DNA of 64,000 nucleotides, taken from NCBI GenBank assembly GCA_037043015.1, contig CM073331.1, positions 3,865,501 to 3,929,500 on the forward strand, read 5' to 3'. The stretch's first letter is position 1. Each line of letters begins with the position of its first letter. The notes below the pieces were generated by a model, which did no database searches, was not told where the DNA came from, and saw nothing but the letters and a program-made list of their open reading frames with translations. Both the position numbers and the translations under genes were made by a program. This DNA comes from Bryum argenteum (Eukaryota; Streptophyta; Bryopsida; Bryales; Bryaceae). Shown piece after piece: positions 3,237-47,109 of the stretch.

Positions 3237-3300
3237 CACCCATAAAAGCATAATCATATATAAGCCGCTAAAATGACACTTTCCGACAAAATTTTAGCAT

Positions 3301-6797: not shown

Positions 6798-9037
6798 AAG
6801 ATTTTATTTTTTTTTATTTTTATTTTTTTTTTCTCTACACTGGAATGGAATAACCTGCTGCATAATAAATTAAAGATCAAGATCCGCCTTCAGTTGGATG
6901 ACTCAAGTTGAAAACCTTAGGGCCTGGGCAGGCTCATTGAAAAACCATAGCAATGGTACAAAAACCTGCCAACACGGAAAGCCATCACATGAAGAAATTG
7001 AACGGAACCTCCTCAAATTCCAAGTACGTGCCAAGCAATATTGATTGATCTGCATGGTACCATTTACTATTGAAATCAAAACCTATAGAACAAATAAAAA
7101 GAACTCAAACAATCCTACTTAAATAGATGAACCCACCCAATCATCAATTGAAACAAAGATGTCCGAAATACCATCCGCAGCGTAAAGCGTAAATGATGAT
7201 TGTAAGCTACTCCATTACATTTCCTTGTTTGCTCACACCACCTGGAGAACCAGGAAAAATGACCCCTCATTTGACAACATATGTACAAAATTTGAGAACG
7301 TATGCATGCAATTTGGGTTTCAACAAGTCTCGCCTCTCGATGTCGCTACCGCAACAGGTAATTGTAATCAGGTAATTCACACTTTCATTGAACCGACTTG
7401 CAATAATCCTACAAAATTGAGTAAAAGATAACAACCTGGATTTTGAGCCACTTTCTCTGGCATCCATCCTTAGGCCTCATACTCCCCTACAGGTCTCTGC
7501 ATTTGCACCAATCACGTGGAAAATCGTTCACGGGGTACTAATTGATGTTTTTAGCATCACTTAGTACCCCTGTACCTTCTTCCTTGAGTTCAATATCATC
7601 CCAAAACACTAGCAGTAGCTAGCTAGGTGCTACAACAAAATGGAATGTGACATTATAAACAAAACCCACAATCCACAATTAGAACTTTACAAATCAATGA
7701 AATTTTGTCAAACAAAGGTCAACTTACTCTAAATATATCCCTAAATATGTAATGAACCATATGATCACCTGACTCATATTCATGAGACAGTAACTGCCTT
7801 GCCAAGCTGAAACTGCACATGATTGGGAAGTTGAAAGGCCTACAGTGAGTTTGTGAACAAGCGAGAAAAAGTCACTTACTATGAACAATTGAAAATTGAT
7901 ACAATTGCATGATTGTTCATGCACGTAACTAAGACTCCATAAATATATGCAAAACAACAACCCAGGCATTGAAAGATACATATTCATCCTACTTGAAGAG
8001 ACATCAACCCGAAGCGACCCTCTTAATCTGAGCTTAGTTTAACCCTTAAAGGTCTGAACGACCATATTTTGGTTGCTAGAATACAACGTATTTTGTTTGT
8101 ATTGGAATGAGTGCACACCTTTAATAGATTTGAGTTCAAAGAACAAGTTGACATATAAATCCATGCGGTTCTACTAAGCTTTTAAGATCACAATATAGAG
8201 TTTCTTATTGGTAGCAAATCTCAATTATACGCCACCGTACATACTATCCCCAAGGGACCTTTAAGGGTTAAACCCTCTTCTAATTTAATGGAAACATTAT
8301 TACACATGATTCAAATCTATGACCTCGGTGGTAGGAGAAAATTCTTACTTACATTGTTAACAGGTTCCTTCCTGATGGGTTGACAAATAAACACTGAAAT
8401 TGATTGACAACAAAAATGTATGAAAAATGTCAACCCCAAGAAAGCCTGCAAGTTAACCCTGCAAAAGAATTCCAAACCTACATACGAACATGACTCATTA
8501 TCCATCTCGTATTTAGATTTCAAAACAATAGTTACCAATGAACTACAGACTAGTAAAGATTTCTATCTCAGTCTTCTTTTTTTCTCTCTACACTGGAATG
8601 GAGTAACCTGCATATAAAGATTCAGTTGGATGACTCAAGTTGAAAACCCTGTGCGGCAGGGCAGGCTCATTGAAAAACCATAACAATGGTACAAAAACCT
8701 TCCTGCCAACACATGAGTTGAAATCGAATTCCAAGTACGTGCGAAGCAATATTGATCTGCATGGTACCATTTACTATCGAAAAGAAATAAAAGAACTCAA
8801 ACAATCCTACTTAAATAGATGAACCTACCCAATCATCAACTGAAACAACATGTCTAAAATAACATCTGCGTAGATGATGATTGTAAGCTACTCCATTTCC
8901 TTATTTGCTTACACCACCTGGATAACAAAAAAAATGACCCCTCATCTGACAACATACAAAATTTGGGGTTCAAACTTTGGGCTTCAAAATTTGGGACTCT
9001 AGCATGTCACTGCATGCAACCAGGTAATTGTAATCAG
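6798..9037. repeat. Subrepeats R1 (truncated) and R2, copy 1
   Basis: Two diverged direct repeats share landmarks in the same order: TGAACC(A/G)ACTTGCAA, GCTAGCTAGGTGCTACAAC, ATTCATGAGACA, CTACACTGGAATGGA, and CAGGTAATTGTAATC at the end. R2 runs from about 7373 to 9037. Only the last 575 bp of R1 (6798-7372) is present, because the array breakpoint cuts R1 internally. Open frames such as minus 7987-7724 lie here, but the frame is not kept in the diverged R1, so they look non-coding. Confidence 0.8.
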
Positions 9038-9254
9038 AAGAACCAGTGAAGAATGAAACAAACAGAATCTGCCAATCGATTTTACAAGTTTTCAATTTGA
9101 CTAAAATAAATCTTCTTATCAAGGACAAAAACTAACCAATAATTGTATAATTGTAGATTTCCTGTCAGTTACCACCGTAATCTGTAACGCCTAGTATCTT
9201 ACCACCTTATCTGTACTTACATCCGCCTAGTATCTTTGAAATTAGAAATCACTC

Positions 9255-9356
9255 CTAATAAGAAACCCTAAATAAAGTAGGCGAACTCGCAATCTTACAA
9301 AACTTGCAAATACAGAAGGACTAAGATTCCCTTTCTATCCACCTTCCATGGTAAGT
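9255..9356 (+). promoter_or_regulatory. TELO box and leader-like segment with ATG|GTAAGT, copy 1
   Basis: A TELO box (AAACCCTAA, 9263-9271) is followed about 75 bp later by ATG at 9348-9350, directly followed by the strong donor-like string GTAAGT. TELO boxes are common upstream of plant ribosomal-protein and other growth-linked genes, some of which have an intron right after the start codon. I cannot find the matching downstream exons, so this may be a captured promoter and leader. Equivalent ATGs are at 24243 and 39139. Confidence 0.4.
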
Positions 9357-9359
9357 CAC

Positions 9360-11510
9360 CTGATCGCATGCTTGGAACCTTGATCGATCTCTAGGGTTCT
9401 ACGTTAAATGACAATTCCTACACAGAAAGGAAGGGAGAGATCGCAAATAGCATACAAACATGCGTTCGCCCATTGCTAAAAATGGACCAAAAAAATTTGT
9501 GTGCAACAGGAAGCAGCGAAGTTACCGAACTGCTGTGTGTGTTGATTCGACACAACGGCGATCATCAAAACCAAAGAGAAGCCAACAGAAATAGCCTCGA
9601 TGAGCAACTTTTGCTATCAACGATGCGAGCTCGCGCCTGAAAACGCAAAAACCGCAGGTCATACAGAGAGCGACTCATATCTTAAAACAATCATTGAGCG
9701 GTGCACTATCAGGTGTAAGCATTACATGGTGAACAACTCGACAAATGCACACAATGGTTTCGAGTGGGACAGTACAAGCACATGAATCCATCGACAAAGT
9801 TGCGACCCGTCCTCCATGGCGCCATGAATTGATGGCGTCCCTCTTGTCTCGTGCATGGCGTCGTACAGGGTGCTAGCTTGATCGGGAAAGTGGAAGCAGA
9901 GGCTTCTTGCCTTATTGAAGACAGATGATGGGCAATGGATTAGGTCTAAGAGATGGACGGCGTGAAATCAAAGGACAAATTCGATGCACCCAAGCACGTG
10001 CAGCCATGACGATCGATGCGCCAGCTCTAGCCCAGACGAATGGCGGACAAGCACAGGGAGAGGTTGGTTAAGTAGAACCCTCTTTATGAGCATTGGCGGC
10101 GGCCTTGCTCGACGACAACAAGCCAAGCGCCAAAGACTAATTACTATATTCTTGAGCAAGAACGAGGTCATTCACTATTCAACTTGTTCCTTCAACGATC
10201 AAATCGACATGTACCTTAGAATATCTATTGTTGATACTACTACATATTTTTGATACATATGATTCTTTAATGCATTCATAAAAATCAAAGGGCTTGTGTT
10301 TCCGCCTTTTCGTAGTATTTTCATTCTCTCAGCGTTCACCAAGGTACATTGGATGCAACAATCAATATTAAATAGGAGATTATGTATATATTTAATAGGG
10401 GATTATTTATATTGCTTTCATTCTTTTAAACTAGTTTTTTATTGTCATTATCATTTTCTCTAAAATAGAAGAAAAGGTGATTAATAATTAACCTTTTTCA
10501 TAATTAGAATAAATATGACATAGTTTAAGGTAAAAGGGTGGTATTGATTAATAGCAGTTATAGCACCATAAATTATTACTAATGATAAATAGAACTATTG
10601 AATAAAGATGCACTTGTGCAAAGCATACTCTGTCATATTAATTATATCTTTATCATAAATATAAATTGGAATTGCAAACGTTTTTATATAACACCTCATA
10701 TTTCTTACAGGTATCTTGGGTTCATCATCATGCACACTTGAATACTTATATACATAATTATTTGCTATATCTTACATTTATATTTATGACATGTACGAGT
10801 TATAAGCGTATATTAATAAGACTTTCATATTTACTATCAAATGTATATATAAGGCCGAATCAAAGACCAATTTAATTTTTGCACTAAGATATTTTGCATA
10901 TCATTCTTTAAGGAAGTGACACCGCTAAGCTAAGGTAATTTGGTGCTTGGAGTACATTGCATTTGAAGAAAATATTTCTTTTTGATGAACACTATTATAT
11001 CAAATAATAAGAACTCATATTTCCGTAACTCATTCAAATGTAACCAATGAGTTGATGCGAGTACGTAAAGATGAAAGTGCACATGCAAACTCCATTCATC
11101 CATTCTATGTAATTTATGTAAATACAACCATTCATAGACCGTACATGAAAACACTCATGACAAACCAATAAAATTGAACTCGGTCAACGGATAAAAAGCA
11201 TTACAAACTAAGATACATATATGTATATATATATACAAGATTGAACATCAAGTTTTTTTCTAAGTTGGCATGAATTAAAAGCCTTGTTGTTCAACCCACC
11301 CTAAAACTAATAGCACGTGGATCTCCTTCACCAATACGAGACTTATCTTCTCGAGCGTATTAGACACACATTATCCTAGTACTCAAATGATAATTACCCT
11401 TTATATGAAATTAAATTATGTACATAACTTACCAATTCCATTTCTTAATCTACCAAGTATTACTTTCACTAGAATGGAGGAATTCATCATAATTATGTCG
11501 TGGCATCCAT
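9360..11510. other. Non-coding part of unit, copy 1
   Basis: No gene is recognised. Short open frames are nearly identical in all three copies only because the DNA is. Bases 10228-10503 are the segment found inverted at the start of the window. An AT-repeat tract (ATACATATATGTATATATAT) lies near 11213-11236. The stretch 10500-11480 is strongly AT-rich. Confidence 0.6.
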
Positions 11511-11514
11511 AGAT

Positions 11515-11706
11515 ATGCATGTCCATTGCAAGTATGCTAGTGCATGTCCAATGTAACAATGGTCATGTATGTGCGAAGAAAAGCATACCCATGCATGTGC
11601 ATTACAAGTATACCCATGATGCATGTGCATTATAAGTATACCCATGCATGTGCATTACAAGTATGACCATGCATGTCCAATGTATGTATGACCATGCATG
11701 TCCCTA
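11515..11706. repeat. CATGCATGT-rich minisatellite, copy 1
   Basis: Degenerate tandem repeats of about 25-30 bp share CCATGCATGTGCATTACAAG and TATACCCATG. About seven units are visible. The tract contains many CATG and GCATGC palindromic steps. Equivalent tracts are at about 26408-26598 and 41309-41499. Confidence 0.8.
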
Positions 11707-12609
11707 GCGTGGATGTACAATGATGGCCATGTGGTGGCCTGGTGGGTATGATGTGATGGCGGCTACTTTCTTGATCCGTGTGGGCAATGTTTGGACTTCC
11801 GAGAACCGGCATGCGGCCATGGCGGATGAATTATCGTATTGTCGTAGCCATGCTAATGGCCAAATTGCGGTTCCAACCTTGAAATCTTGAACCAGTAAGT
11901 GTGATCGGCGCTGCCCTAGCTAGCTACGGCAATTAGCGCACTCTACTAAAAGAGTACGATTTGACTGTGCAAGTCAAATGGAAGATGTTTCATGCATGAG
12001 GTGCAAGGAGCTCGCAGATTTTGGTCGCTTATATGTATGATCGAGCTATGGCGACAAAGCGCTCCATTCAAGGAGTCAAAAGACTCGCAACATGCGTAAG
12101 GACTTTCGGGTTGGTGACGGAAGAAGATGATCGATCTCTTACGGGCGGAATCAACCGGCTTAGTCGTTAACTTTTGTCATGAAGATATTGCATGATTGTG
12201 CATGCACGCGCTTGCGCTTACGAAACATGGATTGAACTGTGGAGCTCGCACGCAACATGTCGTCTAACTTACACCCCGCTCGATCGCGTCAACTAATTAT
12301 ATCGTCAGTCACACTTCTTACAGCGTTACTTTGAGCAACCGTTCACACGGATCGAAGCAATTACAGTAATGGACGAAGTGGCTGTAAGTCCGTCGTAAGC
12401 TCCAAAAGCTGTAGGATCCGTCAAATTTTACAGTGCTAGACGTTACAGTGCTCACCATGTGACCGGTGATTCATGAGGTGCAGGGGGCTCGCAATTGTGG
12501 TTGTTCATTTTTGATTGAGCAGCTGCCTTAGCTGAGGCGACTCAGGCACTCAATCATTTCGTGGAGTCCGTGACTGCAACATGCGAAGTATTTTAGCCTC
12601 GAGTGGATT

Positions 12610-12876
12610 GTGAGGTTGAAGATGATCGACTTGGACTTGGATGTTGCAGACAGTGCTGATCATGTTTTTGATGAGGAGCAGGTGCAGAGAAGTTGCTGTC
12701 TCGTAGATGATGGAGTATCAGATTTTGCGCTAAGGGCGATTGACGCAGAGTCCGTGTACCTGATCAAGCGGCAGCACTTCCGAGCTGTTCGATCTGCGAG
12801 AGGGCAGCTAGCTCAGCCTGCTGAAATTGTTTCTGTCTTGAAAGTCATGCATGAGCACTTCGGGAGTACGTACTAA
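12610..12876 (+). CDS. Unassigned 88-codon open frame in D1, copy 1
   Basis: An open frame whose first ATG is at 12622; the frame is also open upstream through LEWIVRLKM, so it could be an exon. The product is acidic at first (MIDLDLDVADSADHVFDEEQ) and basic later, with no signal peptide or membrane segment and no family I recognise. In the diverged D2 copy the first 40 or so residues are unchanged at the protein level apart from silent changes, but a short insertion then breaks the frame. This is weak support for past coding. It may be a gene fragment. Confidence 0.2.
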   Translation: MRLKMIDLDLDVADSADHVFDEEQVQRSCCLVDDGVSDFALRAIDAESVYLIKRQHFRAVRSARGQLAQPAEIVSVLKVMHEHFGSTY

Positions 12877-13029
12877 GATCAAAGAAATGCTTGCACTCAC
12901 GTACGTAGTGAAGAGGTGGAATCTGTTACGTAGTCTCGGACGTCCCGAGAATTTTCCAATTGCTACACCACAAATTATATGGAGATGTTAAAGTAGTTAT
13001 AGTATGGACAAAGTTCATGAGGTCGGTGG

Positions 13030-13255
13030 AGCTTAAATCGATGATCGCTTTCCAAAGATCAAGTGGCTGGCCGGTCCACGAAGCTTGAATCGCTGATCGC
13101 TTTCATAAGAACAATTGGCTGCCCGGTCCAGGGAGCTTGAATTGCTGATCGCTTTCAGAAGATCAATTGGCTGCCCGGTCCAGGGAGCTTGAATTGCTCA
13201 TCGCTTTCGCAAGATCACATGGCTGGACGATCCAGGGAGCTCGAAGCGATGATAA
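13030..13255. repeat. 52-bp minisatellite between D1 and D2, copy 1
   Basis: Four full units start at 13030, 13082, 13134 and 13186, with a fifth partial unit from 13238, an exact 52-bp period. Each unit has AGCTTGAATTGCTGATCGCT near its start and GGCTGCCCGGTCCAGGG near its end. Confidence 0.95.
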
Positions 13256-14469
13256 CTTACTTATGAGAAAGTGGCTACCGTAGCTAGCTCGGACAAATGA
13301 CTCACTCAAATCGAGTAGTACGTCCGTGCACGTGCTTAAGCGGTCGGACTTCTGAGAACGAGTGGTGTTAGCTAATAGACATGGCCAGATGAATTGTCGT
13401 ATTGTCGGTTCCAATTTTGAAATCTTGAATCATGAGGTGCAGGGAGCTCGCCAATTTGTTGCTCAGTAAGTGTGATCGAGCAGCTTCCCTAGCTACAGCA
13501 ATAATTAGCGCACTCTAGTTACGGAGTACGTGACTGTGAAAGTCAAACGGAAGATGTTTCATGCATGTGGTGCAAGGAGCTAGCAATTCTGGTCGCTCGT
13601 GTGCATGATCAAGCTACGGCGACAGCACTCAATTCAAGGAGTCTTTGACTGCAACATGCGAAAGGACTTTTGGATTGGCCGACAGAAGATCGATCTCGTA
13701 CGGGCCGAACCAACCGGCTTAGTGGCTGACTTTTGCCATGAAGATTATGCATGATCATGCATGCGCGCGCTTACGACATGGATTGAGTTGTGGAGCCTGC
13801 ACGCAACATGTCGTCTAACTTACACCCCGCTCGATCGCGTCGACTAATGTCGTCAGTCACACTTCGTACGCGTTGCAATTAGAGCAACCGTTCACACGGA
13901 AGCTTAATTACAGTAACGGGCGAAGAGGCTGTAAGCGTGGTAAGATCCAGAAGCTGGAGGATCCGTCAAATTTTACGATGCTAAACGTTACAGTGCCCAG
14001 GCACCATGTGGCCGGAGATTCATGAGGTGCAAGGGGCTCGCAATTGTGGTTGCTAATTTATGATCGACCAGCTGCTGCCTTAATTGAGGCGACTGACGCA
14101 CTCATATCCTGGATCCGTGACTGCAACGTACATGCGAAGTATCTTCGCCCTCGAGTGGATCGTGAGATTGAAGATGATCGACTTGGACTTGGATGTTGCA
14201 GACAGTGCTGATCATGTTTTTGATGAGGAGCAGGTGCAGAGAAGTTGCTGCCTCGTGAACTCATGATGGAGTATCAGATTTTGCGCTAAGGGCGATTGAC
14301 GTAGAGCCGTGTACCTGATCAAGCGACAGGACTTCCGAGCTATTCAATCTGCAAGAGGCCAGCTAGCTCAACCTGCTGAATATTTTTTTTCTTTCTTCAA
14401 AGTCATGCATGAGCACTTCCGGAGTGTCCTTGGATTGTACAAGAGCGTGCACTCACGTGCGTGATGAAG

Positions 14470-17400
14470 AGGGGCGGGGGTTTTGGTGCGTTTGTTTGTT
14501 AGATGAAAGGAAACACCATCATAACATTCCATATCCAGATTTTTCACCTTCATCCCATAGTCACAGTGGCACAATTGAAGTCTAATCAATGAGTTCGCGA
14601 GTATTAGAATGTTAATACTCATTCAAGAGATTGCTTTGTCCAAAGTCAATACCTAATCTAGTCTGCACACGCAATTTGAACTAAATTGCATGAACTTAGC
14701 GATTCTATCTTAGCAATATACAAATTTTCAATATTTTTAATGGACTAAGATGTACTTAACCCTTTCAAGAACACCCTTTAGATTCCCACTAGGTAGCTAA
14801 ATATGAAATGCACAATGTTTTGCACTTGCGGACATGAAGAATAGTGCATTGTTTGAACTTTGGGCAATGGGCATTATGAATCATGAATGATGCGATGTTT
14901 GAAATCGGGCATGATTAGAAGTGCAGTGTTTTAACGTGGACTTGATAAAGTGCAAGGCTATGTCCAATGTCTAACCCACTTACCAAAGTCCTTTCAAAGC
15001 ACAACTTACACACAGTCACAACTTTGTGATTGCACCATCAAAGACAAAAAGAATGCTACACGATAATAAGTGTAAAGCTATGTTGGAGAAGTGTTTCCAT
15101 GAAGGTTTTAAGAAACTATGCTTGAAGGGCTTGCGTTCACGAGCGAATTGGGGTAAAACTACCCATAGTCCACCCAACCATATTGGAAAGGACATGTTTG
15201 TTACTTGTGAAGTTGTGCATGAGTAATTTCAAACTAATAAGCCAGACTTCAAAAAATGAACATGTTTTGTTGACTCTTAGGCACCGATTCAAAGCTTAGT
15301 AGTTCCAAACCACGATGAGAGGTTGATAATAAGTATTATTGATGGTAACCATGATTGATGATGTGTGTTGTGAGGGTAAAGATTCAAGTTGAGGTCCCAC
15401 AAGCACTTTACTAAATCTCGCCTCTGTCAATATATAATCAAATCAACTTGACTTCCTTTCACATATTTATGCCTTAGAATTTGGAATGTCGGTTGGTGAA
15501 CATGTATGCATCAAATGGTAAGAATAGCTCACGTACATGGTACATGGTGAATGTGGGATAAATGGCAAATCACTCTCACTTTATATGTTAACTAAGAGGT
15601 AGGGGACAAGAATCACAAGATATGACACGACATGCACTCCAAAAATTGGGAGCGAGCAAACATGGAAAGCCATTTCATGGTACATGGGCCATTACTCGAT
15701 ATCAATACTAAAATCCTATTCCACTCAAATATTGTAATACGAACAAATGAAGAGCATGAAATGTAACTAAAATTAAACAATTGGCCTTCCTTTTCCTTTG
15801 CGAAACGGCCCAAAAGTTAGTTTATTGAAGCGATTCAAGGAAATGATGCATCATTCGTAAGAATTTGTACCGAATGATGCTATTCATAAATGACCATGAA
15901 TTGTGCTTATGGGTTCCACTTTTCCTTCAATTCAAAAGGTTAGGTGGCTATTATAGCACACTATATGCGGGTAATTCAAAAAATCGCCCATGATAAAAAA
16001 TGTTTTTTGTGGCTGGTAATTATAACTTTATTACATGATTCCCTTCACAATGCTAAAAAATTCTTAAAGATCAATGAATCACAAGTAAGATAATAAAAGT
16101 TTCAAAAAATCATCACCGAGGATTATAATTCGCTCAGCTTCTTCACATTTAATATTAAATGGTTAACGAAGAAACATTCATAATTATAAAGTGTTCATCC
16201 TGACACAACCCATAATTAGTATGACCACATTCTGTTACAGTGTACTTTATTATTACAACCAAATATGCCATTGCAACCTCAAGACACAATGTAACATAAT
16301 CTCTAAATATTCTTTTATATTAAATGATTAATTAAAATGCAGTACTTAGGGGTTTTGGACTTTTGGTCACCTATACATGCATGCTGCTAATAAAAAGCTC
16401 AGGCTCAATTACAGGATATCGCCAATTACCTTAAGAACATGAAACTAAGGAGAAAATAGTGAACCCAGTTTCAATAGGAACATGAATAACATTAAAACGG
16501 AAAGAATCAGCACAAAAATAAAAAAATCTCTATTCTTTATTCTTGATTCTTAATTCTCTATTAGACTCTATTATCATAATAATCAGTCTATTCTCTAAAA
16601 GTAATCCAGTAAGTACAGGTTTTGGGCTTTTGGCCACCCACACATGGTGAGCCCTAGTATTGAGCTCCACAAAGCACATGACTAGCATAACCCCAAATAG
16701 CAACATTGATAAAACTAAGTAGATTGAAGGTACTAACCCAGTTTCAATACCGTAAACATGTTCAAAAAGAAAGAAAGAAATCAATTAAGGGCTTAAAATG
16801 TCTGTCAAAGCTTCAATAAGAGGTCCGAACTGTAAAGCCTAATAATGCTCACTGGTAGAACAATTAGACTCTTGATTACACAAATTTGCACAAATTTCTC
16901 TCTCAAACGTTGAAATGCATTTCATCGTTTGTTTGATGAAAAAAGTCTTGTCCACAATTTGGGTTATATTCCTAAGTATCTAGAGCTCAATTTCTGAACC
17001 AATTGATAATTTGGAACCTTAATAAAAAATGATGACCCACCCTTATTTAAGGACCACATTACATTATATACAGTGTACTTTATTACCACCCCAAAATCAA
17101 TAAACAACACAAAATAGTTCTAATCAGCACAAAATCATGTACCTTTCGGTTGAAATGAAACTTTATGGGGTCCATGCAATGCAAGAAAAATTTCTTAATT
17201 GCTCACATTGTAAATCATTCAAATATGTACGTACCACTTATTTTTACCCATACCCGTTCTCCCCACCTTCGCTTCGCCCCACCATTGGAAGCCAATTACT
17301 TTTGCCCACTCTCGCTAAAGATTTGGCAAAAGTTCATGTGAATTTAGACTTAAAGGGTTTATGACTTCCCATGTAAAGCATCCCTTAGAATATATCTCTC

Positions 17401-17670
17401 GAGTGCCAAGAATAGAGATTTGATTTCGTTTAACTTTGTGATCTAGATAAATAAACCTTATCCATAATCCCATAACCATTGCGAATGGTTTCACTTCACT
17501 TCACTTCACTTCACTTCCCATGTAAAAATTCCCTAAACACTATGAAGCATTGTTGAACAAGTATGAATCCTCATGTAGTATCTAGACAACACTAGCCTTC
17601 TCACTTTCACGGATTTCATTGATACGAAGATCGTTTGAGAGTTGTCACCATTTTTCTATGTGCAAGGTTG
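14470..17670. other. AT-rich region upstream of the protease gene, copy 1
   Basis: No gene is recognised over about 3.2 kb. Two diverged short repeats are visible: ACCCAGTTTCAATA at about 16465 and 16738, and GGTTTTGGACTTTTGGTCAC at about 16351 with GGTTTTGGGCTTTTGGCCAC at about 16618. A (TCACT)n microsatellite of five units lies at 17491-17515. The last few hundred bases before 17674 are the likely protease promoter. Confidence 0.6.
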
Positions 17671-17673
17671 AAG

Positions 17674-19855
17674 ATGGCACTACAATTGACCGTGTGGGTA
17701 GTAGCTTCATTGATGTTTTTCTCACACCTTTGCAAAGCAACTACCAAACGTTCAGTTGGTGCATCAACTCATAACCAAACAACTCCGAAACGCCCAAAAC
17801 ATCAGCTGCTCAAGGTATGATATTGATCTAACTATCCCAAGTTTTTTTTTTTTTTTTTTCTTCTTTTTTTTTGTGCAAACTACATGATTACATAATAATG
17901 CTCTAAGATGCGCGTCATGTATATTATTGGCGAAAGTATGGGCTTTGAGGTATTTGCTCCAAAACCCTTGAAAACAATGTCTATGTCAAAATAAGTAGAT
18001 GTTCATTACAAGCAAGCCTTACAGAATTACGGTTGACGTCTTTTGTTGTAGTAATATCAATGCCAAATTGCTCTCATGCGGATTCCGATTAGGTAGTCTT
18101 AATGACCCAACCAATATTTTAACACTAGATTCTTATAATTACTTCCTCTTAAAGCTTTGAGATTTTCGAGCAAAATGAAACATGTAAGAGTAATGATCAA
18201 TGGATAATTAACCATGTAGTTGGAGTCTCAAAGTCTTTCCTGATATCTAGAGCAAATTAATATTGCTACTCTCAAAGTCTTTCCCGATATCTAGAGAAAA
18301 TTAATATTGCTACTGCTTAAACAAAAATAAGTGAGTTGTGTTGGTGACGAGTATGCAGTCATGGAGTATGCCCATGATACGGGTGCAAGATCACCAAGCA
18401 CGGCAAAATCCAGGCCAAAACAAATCTGACACACAACTATGGGCGGAGATGGTGAATCAGAGTCGCGCACGCTGGGCCTACATGAACCACCATCTCAACC
18501 GATCGGTGGGTGTGAAGGCATGGGAACTTCCTAGACTGGAGTATTCAACAGGGAGTTAATTACTTGGTGGAATTGGAAATGGGATCTCCCCCGCAAGACA
18601 CGACTTTCCTTGTCGACACCGGAAGTGCCCTAACGCGGATGCGGGTCGAACATTGCGATCCATGCCTGGACGCTCCGCATTATCCATACCCGTGGCAAGT
18701 CAAGACTCATTCGACGGATGGGTCGAATGTGCGAAACCATTGTGCGGTGAGATCCTTTTCCAAGTGCCGAGTCTTAGCAATTGAGCTCTTACATGGATCT
18801 AAACTACCTCGATTACTCACGATATCCATATTTGCCTTGTATATAGGAGCAACAAGTTCTAGCTTACACTCTTTCTCCGGCTAGCAACAAGTACATCCAT
18901 CACTTAAAAATCTTCTCGTTCGAAGAATAGTGCGATTTCACATTGTATGGATGATGACGTCACGAGCTCGGGGCCCCGGCGGATTGTATTGCAATTGCGC
19001 GATTTGGCGATATTCGCAAGTTTAATGTGGCATATACTGGCGGCACTAATGTTCGAGGGAAAGTGGGAATTGACACGATCCACTTCAACAACAACGGGTA
19101 TGATGAGTCGAAAGCGATTCATGTGGGAATGGCGTCCGAAATTCACGACGCTGATTCTGGTTTCGATGGAGTGATGGGATTAGCTCGGAGCCCTCTTGGT
19201 GTCTTACCAAGCTGGACTCGGAGTTCGACAATGTGTTCTCCCACTGCATAGTGAATCCAGCTTCTGGCAGAACGAGCAAGTTCACGATGGGGGCAATTCC
19301 ATCTGGCTTGAACCAACACTTAGACTACACTCCCATGCAAGCACCGACCAATTGGGAGAATCCTTTCTATTATGTGACTCTGATAGGAATTGCAGTCGGC
19401 CGTGAAATCCAGGCCTTCGATCCGGCTTGGTTTGGACTGACTTTCTCGTCGTGCGGCGGTGGTGGTCTCTTTATCGATAAGCGGCGCATTTGTAACGCGC
19501 TTTTTCAGTTTGCCTTGAATGTCATAATACGCTCTTACCGTCGTCAAGTAACAAGGTTTCCCTCTATGGCGTCTGAGTCATATCATCGCTTTGACACCAC
19601 GGGTTCGCCGCGACCGGTTCTTCCCGACCTCACTTTTAAGTTTGCCAACAATGTGGATGCGGTGGTGACCTCGGCGGAGGCTTTCGTAATGAGTGGCCCC
19701 TTCATGTGCTTGGCTATGCCATTACATACCTCGTGGTGATACGTATGGAATTGCGAGTGTTATTGGTAATATCTTTCTGCAAAATCGGTATGTTGTTTAT
19801 GATAACACGGACGACACCATTGGAATCGGTCCTTGGAAGCTGTCTTAGTGTTTGA
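17674..19855 (+). pseudogene. Nepenthesin-like aspartic protease, disrupted copy 1
   Basis: Counterpart of the gene at 32563-34745. The signal-peptide exon (17674-17814) is identical to copy 2. The first catalytic motif DTGSAL is kept, but the usual Trp after it reads Arg (CTAACCTGG in copy 2 is CTAACGCGG here). The mature-domain exon contains several frame-breaking indels, and the second catalytic motif (FIDSG in copy 2) reads FIDKR. Many of these lesions fall at CAG or CTG: GGACTGTCTTACCAACTGG has become GGTGTCTTACCAAGCTGG, and GATGACTGCAAG has become GATATTCGCAAG. As assembled the gene cannot encode an active enzyme. The concentration of lesions at one motif makes consensus error a serious alternative, so the true copy may be intact. 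Confidence 0.6.
18226..18316. repeat. 44-bp tandem duplication in protease intron 1, copy 1
   Basis: CTCAAAGTCTTTCCTGATAT...TTAATATTGCTA occurs twice in tandem with few differences, shortly before protease exon 2. The same pair is present in copy 2 at about 33115-33205. Confidence 0.8.
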
Positions 19856-24251: not shown

Positions 24252-24254
24252 CAC

Positions 24255-26400: not shown

Positions 26401-26407
26401 ATAGATA

Positions 26408-32555: not shown

Positions 32556-32562
32556 GTTGAAG

Positions 32563-34745: not shown

Positions 34746-35515
34746 TCACCAACCATGCAGTTTCTAGTGACAGAATGGCAACACAATTGAAGTTTTGCGT
34801 CAATTGATGTGAGTATGACTGTTGGCACTTATGAATAAGATCTCTTCAAGTAGAAGATTGATGTCGCATGTTATGTTGTGTTTATTACAATCCTACTTAG
34901 CAATTGTGAATGGCAACACAATTGCCGTTCTACTTCAATGGGTAGCTAGATGTAGGTGTGGGGTACATTTTGGGGGTGGGAATGTGAGGGGGTGGTAGAG
35001 GGTGGGGATCTTGGAAAAAGGCGTAAGGATTATATACTACCTCCAAGTTGGTTCACCTAACTTATTTTTCTAAATACATGTCATTGCTATATGTATTCAT
35101 GATTGATTGTGAGCAATGCATTCTCCATTGGAGTTAGCTCAAAGACATTTCATCCGCATTACATGTGAGTGCTTTTTTGATCCAAATGATTTGTCATTTC
35201 ATACAAAGAATGTACATCTAGAGCCACAAGTTCAATTTCCTTCCAGTTCAAAACTCTCGTGACCCAATTCTTGTTCATTGGAGGAGACTCGAACTCTACC
35301 TTTTGCTCAACATGTAAATAATGAGAGTAGACTTCCTAAACCTCACTTGGAATGCTATGTAGCACCAATTTAGAATAAAATTGAATAATTGGGTGACAAC
35401 AGCTGGAGTTGAACCAGCTTAGAAGAGTCCATATACTCTGTTGTCTCACAAAATGAATGGCTTACTCCAGACAGGGAGTTGTTTCGAAAGAATACTTAAT
35501 CAATTTGTTGAAATT
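34746..35515. other. 3' flank of protease copy 2
   Basis: Colinear with 19856-20627. No gene is recognised. It includes the second copy of the tRNA-like fold at 35396-35444 on the minus strand. Confidence 0.55.
35396..35444 (-). other. tRNA-like fold lacking a D arm (or tRNA relic), copy 2
   Basis: Same 49 bases as 20505-20553, with all three stems kept. There is no third copy because copy 3 is cut before this point. Confidence 0.3.
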
Positions 35516-38500
35516 AATTCACACAGTTTCATTGAACCAACTTGCAAAAATCTTACAAAATTGAGGTCAAAATAACAACCTGGATTTGAAGCCACTTTCT
35601 CTGGCATCCATCCTCGGGCCTCATACTCCCGGGCTGTCTCTGCATTTGTACAAATCACAGTTCACTCACACCATAAAGTTGTTTATCACTGGTAATAAAT
35701 GAATGTTTTTGGCATGATCACTTAGTACCCCTGTACCTTCTTCCTTGAGTTATCATCCCAAAATGCTAAGCAGTAGCTAGCTAGGTGCTACAACAAGATG
35801 AAATGTGACATTATAAACAAAACCCACAATCCACAATCACAACTTTACAAATCAATGAAATTCTGTCAAACAATTTAGGTGAACTTACTCTAAATATATC
35901 TCTAAATATATGAACCATATGATCACCTGGCTCATATTCATGAGACAGTAACTTCCATGCCAAGCTGAATCTGCACATGATTGGGAAGTTGAAAGGCCTA
36001 CATTGACTTATGAATATGAGTGAATAACAACTGAGATGAGCCCCCTCCCTGGCTGGATGTTGCATGTTATGATGTCAATAACATGACGTTGAAAATTCCC
36101 AATACCTGTGAACAAAGAAAAAAAAAACTGTGAAAATTGAAAATTGATACAATTGCATGTGAACCCATGCTTGTAACAAAGCCATAAATGCAAATTGAAC
36201 AACCCAGGCATTGAAAAATACATATTCATCCTAGCTACTTGAAGAGACATCAACCTCAGCTCACCTGGCTCTTTGAGCTTAATACCGCCTTTTCATTTAA
36301 TGGAAACATTGAATCACAAATATCAAATCTATGACCTCGGTGATAGGACAAAAGTCTTAGTTACATTGTCAACAGGTTCCTTTCCTTCCTGATGGGTTGA
36401 CTAGTCCTGAGATCCTTCCCGATGATTGAATCAATTGAACACAACAATTGATTGAAAAAAACAAAACGTATCAAAAATGTCAACCCAGCAAACCCTGCAA
36501 AAGAATTCAAAACCAAGTACATGAACATGACTCATTTATCCATCTGGTATTTAGAATTGAAAACAATTATACCAATGAACTACAGACTAGTGTCTTAAGA
36601 TTTTATTTTTTTTTATTTTTATTTTTTTTTTCTCTACACTGGAATGGAATAACCTGCTGCATAATAAATTAAAGATCAAGATCCGCCTTCAGTTGGATGA
36701 CTCAAGTTGAAAACCTTAGGGCCTGGGCAGGCTCATTGAAAAACCATAGCAATGGTACAAAAACCTGCCAACACGGAAAGCCATCACATGAAGAAATTGA
36801 ACGGAACCTCCTCAAATTCCAAGTACGTGCCAAGCAATATTGATTGATCTGCATGGTACCATTTACTATTGAAATCAAAACCTATAGAACAAATAAAAAG
36901 AACTCAAACAATCCTACTTAAATAGATGAACCCACCCAATCATCAATTGAAACAGCATGTCTGAAATACCATCTGCAGGCGTAAATGATGATTGTAAGCT
37001 ACTCCATTACATTTCCTTGTTTGCTCACACCACCTGGAGAACCAGAAAAATGACCCCTCATTTGACAACATATGTACAAAATTTGAGAACGTATGTACAG
37101 AATTTGGGTTTCAACAAGTCTCAGTCTCAGTATGTCGCTACCTGCAACCAGGTAATTGTAATCAGGTAATTCACACTTTCATTGAACCGACTTGCAATAA
37201 TCCTACAAAATTGAGTAAAAGATAACAACCTGGATTTTGAGCCACTTTCTCTGGCATCCATCCTTAGGCCTCATACTCCCCTACAGGTCTCTGCATTTGC
37301 ACCAATCACGTGGAAAATCGTTCACGGGGTACTAATTGATGTTTTTAGCATCACTTAGTACCCCTGTACCTTCTTCCTTGAGTTCAATATCATCCCAAAA
37401 CACTAGCAGTAGCTAGCTAGGTGCTACAACAAAATGGAATGTGACATTATAAACAAAACCCACAATCCACAATTAGAACTTTACAAATCAATGAAATTTT
37501 GTCAAACAAAGGTCAACTTACTCTAAATATATCCCTAAATATGTAATGAACCATATGATCACCTGACTCATATTCATGAGACAGTAACTGCCTTGCCAAG
37601 CTGAAACTGCACATGATTGGGAAGTTGAAAGGCCTACAGTGAGTTTGTGAACAAAGCAGAAAAAGTCACTTACTATGAACAATTGAAAATTGATACAATT
37701 GCATGATTGTTCATGCACGTAACTAAGACTCCATAAATATATGCAAAACAACAACCCAGGCATTGAAAGATACATATTCATCCTACTTGAAGAGACATCA
37801 ACCTGAGCAGCCCTCTTAATCTGAGCTTAGTTTAACCCTTAAAGGTCTGAACGACCATATTTTGGTTGCTAGAATACAACGTATTTTGTTTGTATTGGAA
37901 TGAGTGCACACCTTTAATAGATTTGAGTTCAAAGAACAAGTTGACATATAAATCCATGCGGTTCTACTAAGCTTTTAAGATCACAATATAGAGTTTCTTA
38001 TTGGTAGCAAATCTCAATTATACGCCACCGTACATACTATCCCCAAGGGACCTTTAAGGGTTAAACCCTCTTCTAATTTAATGGAAACATTATTACACAT
38101 GATTCAAATCTATGACCTCGGTGGTAGGAGAAAATTCTTACTTACATTGTTAACAGGTTCCTTCCTGATGGGTTGACAAATAAACACTGAAATTGATTGA
38201 CAACAAAAATGTATGAAAAATGTCAACCCAGCAAAGCCTGCAAGTTAACCCTGCAAAAGAATTCCAAACCTACATACGAACATGACTCATTATCCATCTC
38301 GTATTTAGATTTCAAAACAATAGTTACCAATGAACTACAGACTAGTAAAGATTTCTATCTCAGTCTTCTTTTTTTCTCTCTACACTGGAATGGAGTAACC
38401 TGCATATAAAGATTCAGTTGGATGACTCAAGTTGAAAACCCTGGGCAGGGCAGGCTCATTGAAAAACCATAACAATGGTACAAAAACCTTCCTGCCAACA

Positions 38501-38828
38501 CATGAGTTGAAATCGAATTCCAAGTACGTGCGAAGCAATATTGATCTGCATGGTACCATTTACTATCGAAAAGAAATAAAAGAACTCAAACAATCCTACT
38601 TAAATAGATGAACCTACCCAATCATCAACTGAAACAACATGTCTAAAATAACATCTGCGTAGATGATGATTGTAAGCTACTCCATTTCCTTATTTGCTTA
38701 CACCACCTGGATAACAAAAAAAATGACCCCTCCTCATCGACAACATACAAAATTTGGGGTTCAAACTTTGGGCTTCAAAATTTGGGACTCTAGCATGTCA
38801 CTGCATGCAACCAGGTAATTGTAATCAG
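35516..38828. repeat. Subrepeats R1 and R2 spanning the copy 2/copy 3 junction
   Basis: R1 is about 35516-37167 and R2 about 37168-38828. The junction at 36597 is in the same T/A tract inside R1. In this instance the CAG and CTG sites are intact (CTCAGTCTCAGTATGTCGCTACCTGCAACCAGG against CTCGATCTCGG...CCGCAACC in copy 2). Confidence 0.85.
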
Positions 38829-39044
38829 AAGAACCAGTGAAGAATGAAACAAACAGAATCTGCCAATCGATTTTACAAGTTTTCAATTTGACTAAAATAA
38901 ATCTTCTTATCAAGGACAAAAACTAACCAATAATTGTATAATTGTAGATTTCCTGTCAGTTACCACCGTAATCTGTAACGCCTAGTATCTTACCACCTTA
39001 TCTGTACTTACATCCGCCTAGTATCTTTGAAATTAGAAATCACT

Positions 39045-39147
39045 CCTAATAAGAAACCCTAAATAAAGTAGGCGAACTCGCAATCTTACAAAACTTGCAA
39101 ATACAGAAGGACTAAGATTCCCTTTCTATCCACCTTCCATGGTAAGT
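39045..39147 (+). promoter_or_regulatory. TELO box and leader-like segment with ATG|GTAAGT, copy 3
   Basis: Third occurrence of AAACCCTAA followed by ATG (39139-39141) and GTAAGT, as at 9255-9356. Confidence 0.4.
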
Positions 39148-39149
39148 CA

Positions 39150-41300
39150 CCTGATCGCATGCTTGGAACCTTGATCGATCTCTAGGGTTCTACGTTAAAT
39201 GACAATTCCTACACAGAAAGGAAGGAGGACGATCCGCAAATAGCATACAGCATGCGTTCGCCCATTGCTAAAAATGGACCAAAAAAATTTGTGTGCAACA
39301 GGAAGCAGCAGAAGTTACCGAACGGCTGCTGTGTGTGTTGATTCGACACAACGGCGATCATCAAAACCAAAGAGAAGCCAACAGAAATAGCCTCGATGAG
39401 CAACTTTTGCTATCAACGATGCGAGCTCGCGCCTGAAAACGCAAAAACCGCAGGTCATACAGAGAGCGACTCATATCTTAAAACAATCATTGAGCGGTGC
39501 ACTATCAGGTGTAAGCATTACATGGTGAACAACTCGACAAATGCACACAATGGTTTCGAGTGGGACAGTACAAGCACATGAATCCATCGACAAAGTTGCG
39601 ACCGTCCTCCGCAGCGCCATGAATTGATGGCGTCCCTCTTGTCTCGTGCATGGCGTCGTCATGGGTGCTAGCTTGATCGGGAAAGTGGAAGCAGAGGCTT
39701 CTTGCCTTATTGAAGACAGATGATGGGCAATGGATTAGGTCTAAGAGATGGACAGCGTGAAATCAAAGGACAAATTCGATGCACCCAAGCACGTGCAGCC
39801 ATGACGATCGATGCGCCAGCTCTAGCCCAGACGAATGGCGGACAAGCACAGGGAGAGGTTGGTTAAGTAGAACCCTCTTTATGAGCATTGGCGGCGGCCT
39901 TGCTCTGACAACACCAAGCGCCAGCACTAATTACTATATTCTTGAGCAAGAACGAGGTCATTCACTATTCAACTTGTTCTTTCAACAGTCAAATCTGACA
40001 TGTACCTTAGAATATCTATTGTTGATACTACTACATATTTTTGATACATATGATTCTTTAATGCATTCATAAAAATCAAAGGGCTTGTGTTTCCCGCCTT
40101 TCGTAGTATTTTCATTCTCTCAAGCGTTCACCAAGGTACATTGGATGCAACAATCAATATTAAATAGGAGATTATGTATATATTTAATAGGGGATTATTT
40201 ATATTGCTTTCATTCTTTTAAACTAGTTTTTTATTGTCATTATCATTTTTCTCTAAAATAGAAGAAAAGGTGATTAATAATTAACCTTTTTCATAATTAG
40301 AATAAATATGACACAGTTTAAGGTAAAAGGGTGGTATTGATTAATAGCAGTTATAGCACCATAAATTATTACTAATGATAAATAGAACTATTGAATAAAG
40401 ATGCACTTGTGCAAAGCATACTCTGTCATATTAATTATATCTTTATCATAAATATAAATTGGAATTGCAAACGTTTTTATATAACACCTCATATTTCTTA
40501 CAGGTATCTTGGGTTCATCATCATGCACACTTGAATACTTATATACATAATTATTTGCTATATCTTACATTTATATTTATGACATGTACGAGTTATAAGC
40601 GTATATTAATAAGACTTTCATATTTACTATCAAATGTATATATAAGGCCGAATCAAAGACCAATTTAATTTTTGCACTAAGATATTTTGCATATCATTCT
40701 TTAAGGAAGTGACACCGCTAAGCTAAGGTAATTTGGTGCTTGGAGTACATTGCATTTGAAGAAAATATTTCTTTTTGATGAACACTATTATATCAAATAA
40801 TAAGAACTCATATTTCCGTAACTCATTCAAATGTAACCAATGAGTTGATGCGAGTACGTAAAGATGAAAGTGCACATGCACACTCCATTCATCCATTCTA
40901 TGTAATTTATGTAAATACAACCATTCATAGACCGTACATGAAAACACTCATGACAAACCAATAAAATTGAACTCAGTCAACAGATAAAAAGCATTACAAA
41001 CTAAGATACATATATGTATATATATATACAAGATTGAACATCAAGTTTTTTCTAAGTTGGCATGAATTAAAAGCCTTGTTGTTCAACCCACCCTAAAACT
41101 AATAGCACGTGGATCTCCTTCACCAATACAGACTTATCTTCTCGAGCGTATTAGACACACATTATCCTAGTACTCAAATGATAATTACCCTTTTATATGA
41201 AATTAAATTATGTACATAACTTACCAATTCCATTTCTTAATCTACCAAGTATTACTTTCACTAGAATGGAGGAATTCATCATAATTATGTCAGCGGCATC
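39150..41300. other. Non-coding part of unit, copy 3
   Basis: Colinear with 9360-11510. No gene is recognised. Confidence 0.6.
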
Positions 41301-41308
41301 CATAGATA

Positions 41309-41499
41309 TGCATGTCCATTGCAAGTATGCTAGTGCATGTCCAATGTAACAATGGTCATGTATGTGCAGTACAAGCATACCCATGCATGTGCATTACAAG
41401 TATACCCATGATGCATGTGCATTATAAGTATACCCATGCATGTGCATTACAAGTATGACCATGCATGTCCAATGTATGTATGACCATGCATGTCCCTAG
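41309..41499. repeat. CATGCATGT-rich minisatellite, copy 3
   Basis: Counterpart of 11515-11706, identical to copy 2 across the tract as far as I can see. Confidence 0.8.
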
Positions 41500-42403
41500 C
41501 ATGGATGTACAATGATGGCCATGTGGTGGCCTGGTGGGTATGATGTGATGGCCAGCTACTTTCTTGATCCGTGTGGGCAATGTTTCTGGACTTCCCGAGA
41601 ACCGGCATGCAGCCATGGCCAGATGAATTATCGTATTGTCGTAGCCATGCTAATGGCCAAATTGCCGGTTCCAACCTTGAAATCTTGAACCAGTAAGTGT
41701 GATCGAGCAGCTGCCCTAGCTAGCTACGGCAATTAGCGCACTCTACTAAAAGAGTACCTGACTGTGCAAGTCAAATGGAAGATGTTTCATGCATGAGGTG
41801 CAAGGAGCTCGCAGTTTCGGTCGCTTATATGTATGATCGAGCTATGGCGACAGCACTCCATTCAAGGAGTCAAAAGACTCGCAACATGCGTAAGGACTTT
41901 CGGGTTGGCTGACAGAAGAAGATGATCGATCTCTTACGGGCGGAATCAACCGGCTTAGTCGTTAACTTTTGTCATGAAGATATTGCATGATTGTGCATGC
42001 ACGCGCTTGCGCTTACGAAACATGGATTGAACTGTGGAGCCTGCACGCAACATGTCGTCTAACTTACACCCCGCTCGATCGCGTCAACTAATTATATCGT
42101 CAGTCACACTTCTTACGCGTTACTTTGAGCAACCGTTCACACGGATCGAAGCAATTACAGTAATGGACGAAGTGGCTGTAAGTCCGTCGTAAGCTCCAAA
42201 AGCTGTAGGATCCGTCAAATTTTACAGTGCTAGACGTTACAGTGCTCACCATGTGACCGGTGATTCATGAGGTGCAGGGGGCTCGCAATTGTGGTTGTTC
42301 ATTTTTGATTGAGCAGCTGCCTTAGCTGAGGCGACTCAGGCACTCAATCATTTCGTGGAGTCCGTGACTGCAACATGCGAAGTATTTTAGCCTCGAGTGG
42401 ATT

Positions 42404-42670
42404 GTGAGGTTGAAGATGATCGACTTGGACTTGGATGTTGCAGACAGTGCTGATCATGTTTTTGATGAGGAGCAGGTGCAGAGAAGTTGCTGTCTCGTAG
42501 ATGATGGAGTATCAGATTTTGCGCTAAGGGCGATTGACGCAGAGTCCGTGTACCTGATCAAGCGGCAGCACTTCCGAGCTGTTCGATCTGCGAGAGGGCA
42601 GCTAGCTCAGCCTGCTGAAATTGTTTCTGTCTTGAAAGTCATGCATGAGCACTTCGGGAGTACGTACTAA
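42404..42670 (+). CDS. Unassigned 88-codon open frame in D1, copy 3
   Basis: Same product as the frames at 12610 and 27503. Function unknown. Possibly not a gene. Confidence 0.2.
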   Translation: MRLKMIDLDLDVADSADHVFDEEQVQRSCCLVDDGVSDFALRAIDAESVYLIKRQHFRAVRSARGQLAQPAEIVSVLKVMHEHFGSTY

Positions 42671-42823
42671 GATCAAAGAAATGCTTGCACTCACGTACGT
42701 AGTGAAGAGGTGGAATCTGTTACGTAGTCTCGGACGTCCCGAGAATTTTCCAATTGCTACACCACAAATTATATGGAGATGTTAAAGTAGTTATAGTATG
42801 GACAAAGTTCATGAGGTCGGTGG

Positions 42824-43049
42824 AGCTTAAATCGATGATCGCTTTCCAAAGATCAAGTGGCTGGCCGGTCCACGAAGCTTGAATCGCTGATCGCTTTCAT
42901 AAGAACAATTGGCTGCCCGGTCCAGGGAGCTTGAATTGCTGATCGCTTTCAGAAGATCAATTGGCTGCCCGGTCCAGGGAGCTTGAATTGCTCATCGCTT
43001 TCGCAAGATCACATGGCTGGACGATCCAGGGAGCTCGAAGCGATGATAA
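42824..43049. repeat. 52-bp minisatellite, copy 3
   Basis: Four full units and a partial fifth, as in the other copies. Unit number has not changed since the array formed. Confidence 0.95.
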
Positions 43050-44259
43050 CTTACTTATGAGAAAGTGGCTACCGTAGCTAGCTCGGACAAATGACTCACT
43101 CAAATCGAGTAGTACGTCCGTGCACGTGCTTAAGCGGTCGGACTTCTGAGAACGAGTGGTGTTAGCTAATAGACATGGCCAGATGAATTGTCGTATTGTC
43201 GGTTCCAATTTTGAAATCTTGAATCATGAGGTGCAGGGAGCTCGCCAATTTGTTGCTCAGTAAGTGTGATCGAGCAGCTTCCCTAGCTACAGCAATAATT
43301 AGCGCACTCTAGTTACGGAGTACGTGACTGTGAAAGTCAAACGGAAGATGTTTCATGCATGTGGTGCAAGGAGCTAGCAATTCTGGTCGCTCGTGTGCAT
43401 GATCAAGCTACGGCGACAGCACTCAATTCAAGGAGTCTTTGACTGCAACATGCGAAAGGACTTTTGGATTGGCCGACAGAAGATCGATCTCGTACGGGCC
43501 GAACCAACCGGCTTAGTGGCTGACTTTTGCCATGAAGATTATGCATGATCATGCATGCGCGCGCTTACGACATGGATTGAGTTGTGGAGCCTGCACGCAA
43601 CATGTCGTCTAACTTACACCCCGCTCGATCGCGTCGACTAATGTCGTCAGTCACACTTCGTACGCGTTGCAATTAGAGCAACCGTTCACACGGAAGCTTA
43701 ATTACAGTAACGGGCGAAGAGGCTGTAAGCGTGGTAAGATCCAGAAGCTGGAGGATCCGTCAAATTTTACGATGCTAAACGTTACAGTGCCCAGGCACCA
43801 TGTGGCCGGAGATTCATGAGGTGCAAGGGGCTCGCAATTGTGGTTGCTAATTTATGATCGACCAGCTGCTGCCTTAATTGAGGCGACTGACGCACTCATA
43901 TCCTGGATCCGTGACTGCAACGTACATGCGAAGTATCTTCGCCCTCGAGTGGATCGTGAGATTGAAGATGATCGACTTGGACTTGGATGTTGCAGACAGT
44001 GCTGATCATGTTTTTGATGAGGAGCAGGTGCAGAGAAGTTGCTGCCTCGTGAACTCATGATGGAGTATCAGATTTTGCGCTAAGGGCGATTGACGTAGAG
44101 CCGTGTACCTGATCAAGCGACAGGACTTCCGAGCTATTCAATCTGCAAGAGGCCAGCTAGCTCAACCTGCTGAATATTTTTTTTCTTTCTTCAAAGTCAT
44201 GCATGAGCACTTCCGGAGTGTCCTTGGATTGTACAAGAGCGTGCACTCACGTGCGCAGT

Positions 44260-47109
44260 GAAGAGGGGGCCGGGGGTTTTGGTGCGTTTGTTTGTTAGAT
44301 GAAAGGAAACACCATCATAACATTCCATATCCAGTTTTTCACCTTCATCCCATAGTCACAGTGGCACAATTCAGAAGTCTAATCAATGAGTTCGCAGTAT
44401 TAGAATGTTAATACTCATTCAAGAGATTGCTTTGTCCAAAGTCAATACCTAATCTAGTCTGCACACGCAATTTGAACTAAATTGCATGAACTTAGCGATT
44501 CTATACTTAGCAATATACAAATTTTCAATATTTTTAATGGACTAAGATGTACTTAACCCTTTCAAGAACACCCTTTAGATTCCCACTAGGTAGCTAAATA
44601 TGAAATGCACAATGTTTTGCACTTGCGGACATGAAGAATAGTGCATTGTTTGAACTTTGGGCAATGGGCATTATGAATCATGAATGATGCGATGTTTGAA
44701 ATCGGGCATGATTAGAAGTGCAGTGTTTTAACGTGGACTTGATAAAGTGCAAGGCTATGTCCAATGTCTAACCCACTTACCAAAGTCCTTTCAAAGCACA
44801 ACTTACACACAGTCACAACTTTGTGATTGCACCATACAAAGACAAAAAGAATGCTACCTGATAATAAGTGTAAAGCTATGTTGGAGAAGTGTTTCCATGA
44901 AGGTTTTAAGAAACTATGCTTGAAGGGCTTGCGTTCACGAGCGAATTGGGGTAAAACTACCCATAGTCCACCCAACCATATTGGAAAGGACATGTTTGTT
45001 ACTTGTGAAGTTGTGCATGAGTAATTTCAAACTAATAAGCCAGACTTCAAAAAATGAACATGTTTTGTTGACTCTTAGGCACCGATTCAAAGCTTAGTAG
45101 TTCCAAACTACTGATGAGAGGTTGATAATAAGTATTATTGATGGTAACCATGATTGATGATGTGTGTTGTGAGGGTAAAGATTCAAGTTGAGGTCCCACA
45201 AGCACTTTACTAAATCTCGCCTCTGTCAATATATAATCAAATCAACTTGACTTCCTTTCACATATTTATGCCTTAGAATTTGGAATGTCGGTTGGTGAAC
45301 ATGTATGCATCAAATGGTAAGAATAGCTCACGTACATGGTACATGGTGAATGTGGGATAAATGGCAAATCACTCTCACTTTATATGTTAACTAAGAGGTA
45401 GGGGACAAGAATCACAAGATATGACACGACATGCACTCCAAAAATTGGGAGCGAGCAAACATGGAAAGCCATTTCATGGTACATGGGCCATTACTCGATA
45501 TCAATACTAAAATCCTATTCCACTCAAATATTGTAATACGAACAAATGAAGAGCATGAAATGTAACTAAAATTAAACAATTGGCCTTCCTTTTCCTTTGC
45601 GAAACGGCCCAAAAGTTAGTTTATTGAAGCGATTCAAGGAAATGATGCATCATTCGTAAGAATTTGTACCGAATGATGCTATTCATAAATGACCATGAAT
45701 TGTGCTTATGGGTTCCACTTTTCCTTCAATTCAAAAGGTTAGATCAAGCTATTATAGCACACTATGTGCAGGTAATTCAAAAATCGGCCACAGTAAAATG
45801 TTTTTTTGTAACTGGTAATTATAACTTTATTACATGATTCCCTTCACAATGCTAAAAAATTCTTAAAGATCAATGAATCACAAGTAAGATAATAAAAGTT
45901 TCAAAAATCTGTCCACCAGGATTATAATTCGCTCAGCTTCTTCACATTTAATATTAAATGGTTAACGAAGAAACATTCATAATTATAAAGTGTTCATCCT
46001 GACACAACCCATAATTAGTATGACCACATTCTGTTACAGTGTACTTTATTATTACAACCAAATATGCCATTGCAACCTCAGGACACAATGTAACATAATC
46101 TCTAAATATTCTTTTATATTAAATAATTAATTAAAATGCAGTACTTAGGGGTTTTGGACTTTTGGACACCTATACATGCATGCTGCTAATAAAAAGCTCA
46201 GGCTCAATTACAGGATATCGCCAATTACCTTAAGAACATGAAACTAAGGAGAAAATAGTGAACCCAGTTTCAATAGGAACATGCATAACATTAAAACGGA
46301 AAGAATCAGCACAAAAATAAATAAATCTCTATTCGTTTATTCTTGATTCTTAATTCTCTATTAGACTCTATTATCATAATAATCAGTCTATTCTCTAAAA
46401 GTAATCCAGTAAGTACAGGTTTTGGGCTTTTGGCCACCCACACATGGTGAGCCCTAGTATTGAGCTCCACAAGCACAGCTAGCATAACCCAATTAAATAG
46501 CAACATTGATAAAACTAAGTAGATTGAAGGTACTAACCCAGTTTCAATACTGTAAACATGTTCAAAAAGAAAGAAAGAAATCAATTAAGGGCTTAAAATG
46601 TCTGTCAAAGCTTCAATAAGAGGTCCGAACTGTAAAGCCTAATAATGCTCACTGGTAGAACAATTAGACTCTTGATTACACAAATTTGCACAAATTTCTC
46701 TCTCAAACGTTGAAATGCATTTCATCGTTTGTTTGATGAAAAAAGTCTTGTCCACAATTTGGGTTATATTCCTAAGTATCTAGAGCTCAATTTCTGAACC
46801 AATTGATAATTTGGAACCTTAATAAAATGACAGCCCACCCTTATTTAAGGACCACATTCTGTTATGTACAGTGTACTTTATTACCACCCCCAAAATCAAT
46901 AAACAACACAAAATAGTTCTAATCAGCACAAAATCATGTACCTTTCGGTTGAAATGAAACTTTATGGGGTCCATGCAATGCAAGAAAAATTTCTTAATTG
47001 CTCACATTGTAAATCATTCAAATATGTACGTACCACTTATTTTTACCCATACCCGTTCTCCCCACCTTCGCTTCGCCCCACCATTGGAAGCCAATTACTT
47101 TTGCCCACT
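44260..47109. other. AT-rich end of truncated copy 3
   Basis: Colinear with 14470-17309, the region that lies upstream of the protease in full units. No gene is recognised. Here it leads instead into the 3' flank of ALMT. Confidence 0.6.

Follow-up and report, generated by a model that had tools for sequence, protein, structure and literature searches.

Nanopore errors driven by base modification have been described for Listeria, where they fall at the motifs GCAGC and GCTGG, and the passages on them in PMC10687267 blame modifications on which the base-caller was untrained. The differences between tandem copies that we describe here for the moss Bryum argenteum likewise keep to a short motif with CAG/CTG at its core and outlast the consensus, and we explain them in a similar manner. 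On the other hand, the Listeria evidence in those passages comes from amplified-DNA controls and bacterial methylases, whereas for the moss array a plant-type CWG context (i.e., CAG/CTG) is deduced from the assembled sequence, and here, unlike in Listeria, the errors survive in a repeat. For native plant DNA, a lower nanopore accuracy and species-specific base-callers have been reported (PMC9749173). That work also names plant methylation as a likely cause of base-calling errors, but CHG is absent from its main text, and its passages on the errors hold neither a motif nor a strand rule. In transposons of the moss Physcomitrium, CHG methylation stands at about 80%, similar to that of CG, and is made by PpCMT, according to the relevant passages of PMC9994747. 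A literature search joining nanopore base-calling errors with plant CHG methylation found no paper, and we claim no more than that.

The CAG/CTG differences between the copies of the array are very probably base-calling errors at methylated CWG that were left in the assembly, and not differences in the DNA. The earlier note on this DNA had found them consistent with systematic nanopore error at methylated CHG sites, left unpolished by short reads in a repeat. This reading is supported by the dependence of the errors on reading direction, by an island shared among the copies, by copy-specific blocks and by the loss of reading frame, with the nanopore platform and 5-methylcytosine as the probable agents.

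The unit of the array measures about 14.9 kb, and some 2.7 tandem repeats of it fill positions 6798-47167 of the window, i.e., the whole 64,000-nucleotide stretch of DNA analysed here (C11:3865501-3929500, in an assembly of 258.8 Mb and 25 contigs). The three-copy array reported previously is present as c1 (6798..21706) and c2 (21707..36596), plus the partial copy c3 (36597..47167), all on the plus strand; c2 served as the reference. Positions 1..275 hold the end of an inverted copy, A3m (minus strand), which continues to the left beyond the window. Inverted unit copies lie to the left of a kinase gene and direct copies to its right, and the left array holds a 100-N gap (L010-L012), so that the number and order of the copies are uncertain. 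The kinase is single-copy, and its best relative, from the moss Ceratodon purpureus, is 64% identical; the two align in a single frame across residues 106-661, with residues 15-105 matched by an upstream piece, so that this stretch of unrepeated flank looks sound. The proteins of the window are plant-like, and neither a search of it with Rfam nor a tRNA scan found anything. A perfect 59-base tandem duplication lies upstream of the kinase frame (3299-3417), and nine 18-base repeats at 61506-61669 are in frame within a minus-strand reading frame (60927-62147), where they code for DDTRAV repeats.

Further copies in the same assembly were brought together with c1-c3 in an alignment of 15 rows. These comprise the inverted copies A2m and A3m to the left of the window, the fragments A1 and A1b beside the 100-N gap, and eight copies or part-copies of a second array (B1-B4 forward, B5m-B8m inverted), located about 3 Mb from the window array on the same scaffold. 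The second array occupies 97.7 kb bounded by a 100-N gap on each side (C11:6854787-6952477, loci L014-L024) and is almost entirely a palindrome of the unit, whose arms measure 48.6 and 49.0 kb. Identity to c2 drops outward along one arm, from 96.8% in B5m to 93.7% in B6m, 91.6% in B7m and 88.1% in B8m. This palindromic piece may stem from a foldback read or from duplication of the window array, but its arms meet at differing unit positions (14763 and 11770).

When c1-c3 were aligned, 381 columns differed, forming 142 clusters; a tighter clustering on the 15-row alignment gave 166 events. In 106 of these 166, at least one copy carries CAG/CTG within 2 bases, compared to a mean of 17.2 expected from 300 random placements (sd 3.9, highest value 29), while the letter-matched control GWC accounts for 25 events against 15.8 expected. 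The claim that the copies disagree mostly on CAG/CTG is thus borne out, and the check proposed with it, i.e., aligning the copies and classing their differences by distance to CAG/CTG, does find the enrichment. Measured against c2, c1 departs at 90 of 321 CWG sites and at 607 of 14888 trinucleotides of all classes. Among 32 trinucleotide classes, CAG/CTG is the most altered in 11 of the 13 comparisons with c2, reaching 203/321 in B3 and 120/156 in B8m, so that the errors concentrate on one short methylatable motif; it is only third in c3 (12/232) and sixth in A1/A1b. Outside the island described below, 96 of 268 CWG sites are not CWG in c1, the most altered of the window copies, compared to 25 of 268 in c2 and 13 of 175 in c3. 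All ten strings quoted in the earlier note as examples occur in the window, and eight lie in the copy named; the two of the fifth example were, by our numbering, misassigned, as CACTTTGGCTC is in copy 1 (21035) and its counterpart CACCTGGCTC in copy 2 (35924), copy 3 ending short of this position.

Among the remaining 60 of the 166 events, which have no CWG nearby, are changes of homopolymer length, parts of larger miscalls and, towards the c3 end (about 46081-46335 and 47108-47167), plain substitutions that look like true variants. CG is enriched as well (85 events against 27.0 expected), which we read as a product of the miscalls. The outcome also depends on the reference chosen. With c1 as the reference, CGC, CCG and CGA lead, as would be expected of products of the change, and CAG/CTG ranks sixth against c2 and falls outside the nine classes listed against c3. 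A majority reference built from the 15 rows placed CCG/CGG first for c1-c3, with CGC and CGA also above CAG/CTG (fourth); it was set aside in favor of c2 for the window copies because damaged rows were judged to dominate the majority.

Which version is the original is indicated by an aspartyl protease gene within the unit. In c2, its N-terminal part (TAXi_N/Asp) lies at 33406..33711 and an open frame at 33777..34742, both on the plus strand. One relative of the c2 protease frame was found, P0121, which is 92% identical over 85% of the query in one alignment. P0121 gives a single 274-residue match at 92% with both c2 and B1. In c1 (18516..19736, plus strand), on the other hand, the gene is frameshifted and split, matching P0121 in three pieces and two frames at 73-95%, and in A3m, B2, B3, B4, B6m, B7m and B8m the match is reduced to one to three pieces at 32-79%; in the remaining rows the gene is absent or has no match to P0121. 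Since the frame matching P0121 is intact in c2 and B1 and broken or degraded in the other rows that match it, the CAG/CTG version is the original one. Among the 13 frames searched with Pfam, ten of them in the unit, no transposon or virus domain exceeded the curated cut-off in the unit, and aspartyl protease/TAXi domains were the only ones there to do so.

A stretch of about 2.1 kb escapes the damage. In the 12 rows that cover this island wholly or partly, CWG is almost always intact, and in each of c1 (12323..14459), c2 (27216..29352) and c3 (42117..44253) only 1 of 79 CWG sites is altered. Taking the union of the CWG sites of c1-c3, 117 of 268 vary outside the island and 2 of 79 inside, compared to 32 of 252 and 0 of 64 for the GWC control. 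In nine rows from outside the window, 18 of 631 island CWG site-copies are altered, against 1386 of 1959 elsewhere; A1, A1b and B1, where 36/38, 83/94 and 78/93 CWG sites are intact, do not reach the island and were left out of these counts. The sparing of island CWG implies that the motif alone is insufficient to cause the errors. On the right, the island breaks off sharply between positions 7563 and 7647 of the unit, while on the left it fades gradually in the B copies, which are 71-93% intact in the 500 bases before it, compared to 7% in A2m and A3m. Two modules of about 1 kb, 84% alike (26790-27809 and 28356-29351), flank an array of 52-base repeats (27921-28146), and most of this stretch lies inside the island.

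These observations bear on the strongest of the alternatives, although a very improbable one, namely that sequencing or polishing errors depend on the CWG context but not on modification, for instance through a CWG-biased base-caller, and that the island was simply better polished. Such errors would agree with the damage falling in blocks, as polishing would leave it, and with an island that is cleaner for other classes of change as well. Indeed, far from CWG, A/T bases are changed about four times less often inside the island than outside it (33/6173 against 1050/45603), and since, moreover, control motifs in c1-c3 vary there at 0 sites, the island is cleaner in general and not only at CWG, which could come from CG or CHH methylation, or from better polishing. 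However, hardly any of the approximately 79 CWG sites of the island is changed, not even in the most damaged rows, and it is hard to understand why polishing should favor the same stretch in every row. Besides, homopolymers of at least four bases are still changed in the island (19/144, 13%, against 292/1524, 19%, outside), so that general errors persist there. The two modules also behave differently across the island edge: in the part of the first just outside it (26790..27216, plus strand), 43 of 104 CWG site-copies are altered in the nine other rows, although 24 of the 43 are in A2m and A3m and 8 at a single site where c1 alone has CWG, compared to 0 of 87 in the 84%-identical duplicate within the island (28356..28763, plus strand). 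The island has a CpG observed/expected ratio of 1.00 and the remainder of the unit one of 0.60, although other bins, e.g., the protease region, also approach 1 and yet have damaged CWG. The near absence of CWG errors while homopolymer errors persist suggests that the island probably lacks CHG methylation.

Altered CWG sites run in blocks that differ between the copies. Neighboring sites agree in their state at 0.76 (12 copies, 264 sites), compared to null means of 0.52 when states are shuffled among the copies at each site and 0.645 when they are shuffled along each copy. Blocks of damaged and intact sites are the outcome that blockwise repair of some copies would leave.

The evidence on strand is drawn from copies outside the window. 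Outcomes were counted only at sites with two unchanged bases on either side, and B1 was left out of the counts for both arms. Read in the direction of the contig, CTG became CCG at 84 of 226 sites in the forward arm of the palindrome and CAG became CGG at 0 of 214; in the reverse arm, the corresponding values are 86 of 262 and 1 of 197. The outcomes in this contig are CCG, TCG or CG for CTG, and CGT, TGT, CG and similar for CAG. Copies of the same arm shared the same wrong allele at 31-54% of the sites damaged in both (9 pairs), copies of different arms at 1-10% (12 pairs, B1 again left out). As CAG and CTG are reverse complements of each other, a spectrum bound to direction points to a strand-specific miscall rather than a change in the DNA. 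This dependence on the strand read is seen in the palindromic contig and not in c1-c3 (CTG to CCG 5/282, CAG to CGG 16/338) or in A2m/A3m (16/99 and 8/86), where both strands entering the consensus would explain its loss.

The earlier note had offered as its alternative a new mutation process directed at CWG, and a real process of this kind, acting on possibly methylated CWG, would share the strong focus on the motif; a mutator guided by methylation would also spare the island. Nevertheless, we regard it as very unlikely, because the spectrum is one-sided in both arms and is thus fixed by the direction of the contig, not by the orientation of the unit. A replication-direction bias is possible in principle, although ratios of 84:0 and 86:1, together with indels and more than one outcome at a site, are hardly to be expected of it. 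A mutation process also fits poorly with B1, which is 99.2% identical to c2 although its neighbors in the same contig are 92.7-96.2% identical, and with a protease frame that some copies keep whole while in others it is broken up. Deamination had already been judged not to be the pattern, and this holds: at sites with unchanged flanking bases, single C>T or G>A outcomes account for 6 of the 157 alterations found in c1-c3, A2m and A3m together, and for 22 of the 572 found in B2-B8m, far from the dominance expected of 5-methylcytosine deamination. Repeat-induced point mutation (RIP) in fungi, which converts C to T at CpA, resembles the moss array in that the changes cluster in duplicated DNA and in a fixed sequence context, but differs in these low proportions and in the common indels of the array. 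Ordinary divergence of old duplicates, although some plain substitutions at the end of c3 look real, has practically no chance of being the explanation, as c1 and c2 differ at only 18 of 6062 A/T bases more than five bases from CWG outside the island and few of the outcomes are a single C>T or G>A.

We therefore retain base-calling error at methylated CWG and propose the following scheme. CHG sites in the repeat would be methylated on both strands, as is known for Physcomitrium transposons. A long-read base-caller, most likely a nanopore one, untrained on methylated CWG, would misread them according to the strand that is read, and the same error would return read after read, so that the consensus could not remove it. 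Short reads would repair the errors where they can be placed, which among near-identical copies would be patchy. Such patchy repair would yield copies with differing mixtures of intact and damaged sites, with their differences piled on CWG, and the stretch of about 2.1 kb would escape because it is probably not CHG-methylated.

Just beyond the palindrome, a second pair of duplicates of 3.6 kb, unrelated to the unit and 99.3% identical, was observed at C11:6952578-6956155 and 6961412-6965000 (L024, L025). The two differ at 13 positions, of which inspection by eye places at least 7 at CAG/CTG and the others largely at homopolymers; the CWG pattern is thus not confined to the 14.9-kb unit.

The kind of error is itself known, and the unusual point is the clarity with which the errors that remain trace an apparently hypomethylated island. 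It is likely, in our view, that these errors form a readable record of CHG methylation, which outlines a CHG-hypomethylated island of about 2.1 kb at the same place in the 12 rows covering it, and that nanopore assemblies could be mined for such records. If true, the unpolished repeats of published nanopore assemblies would give methylation without raw signal. The copies of the moss array resemble diverged pseudogenes yet may be nearly identical, and divergence dates, pseudogene calls and copy trees drawn from such unpolished duplicates would be wrong, while the same errors outline the parts of the repeat that are probably methylated.
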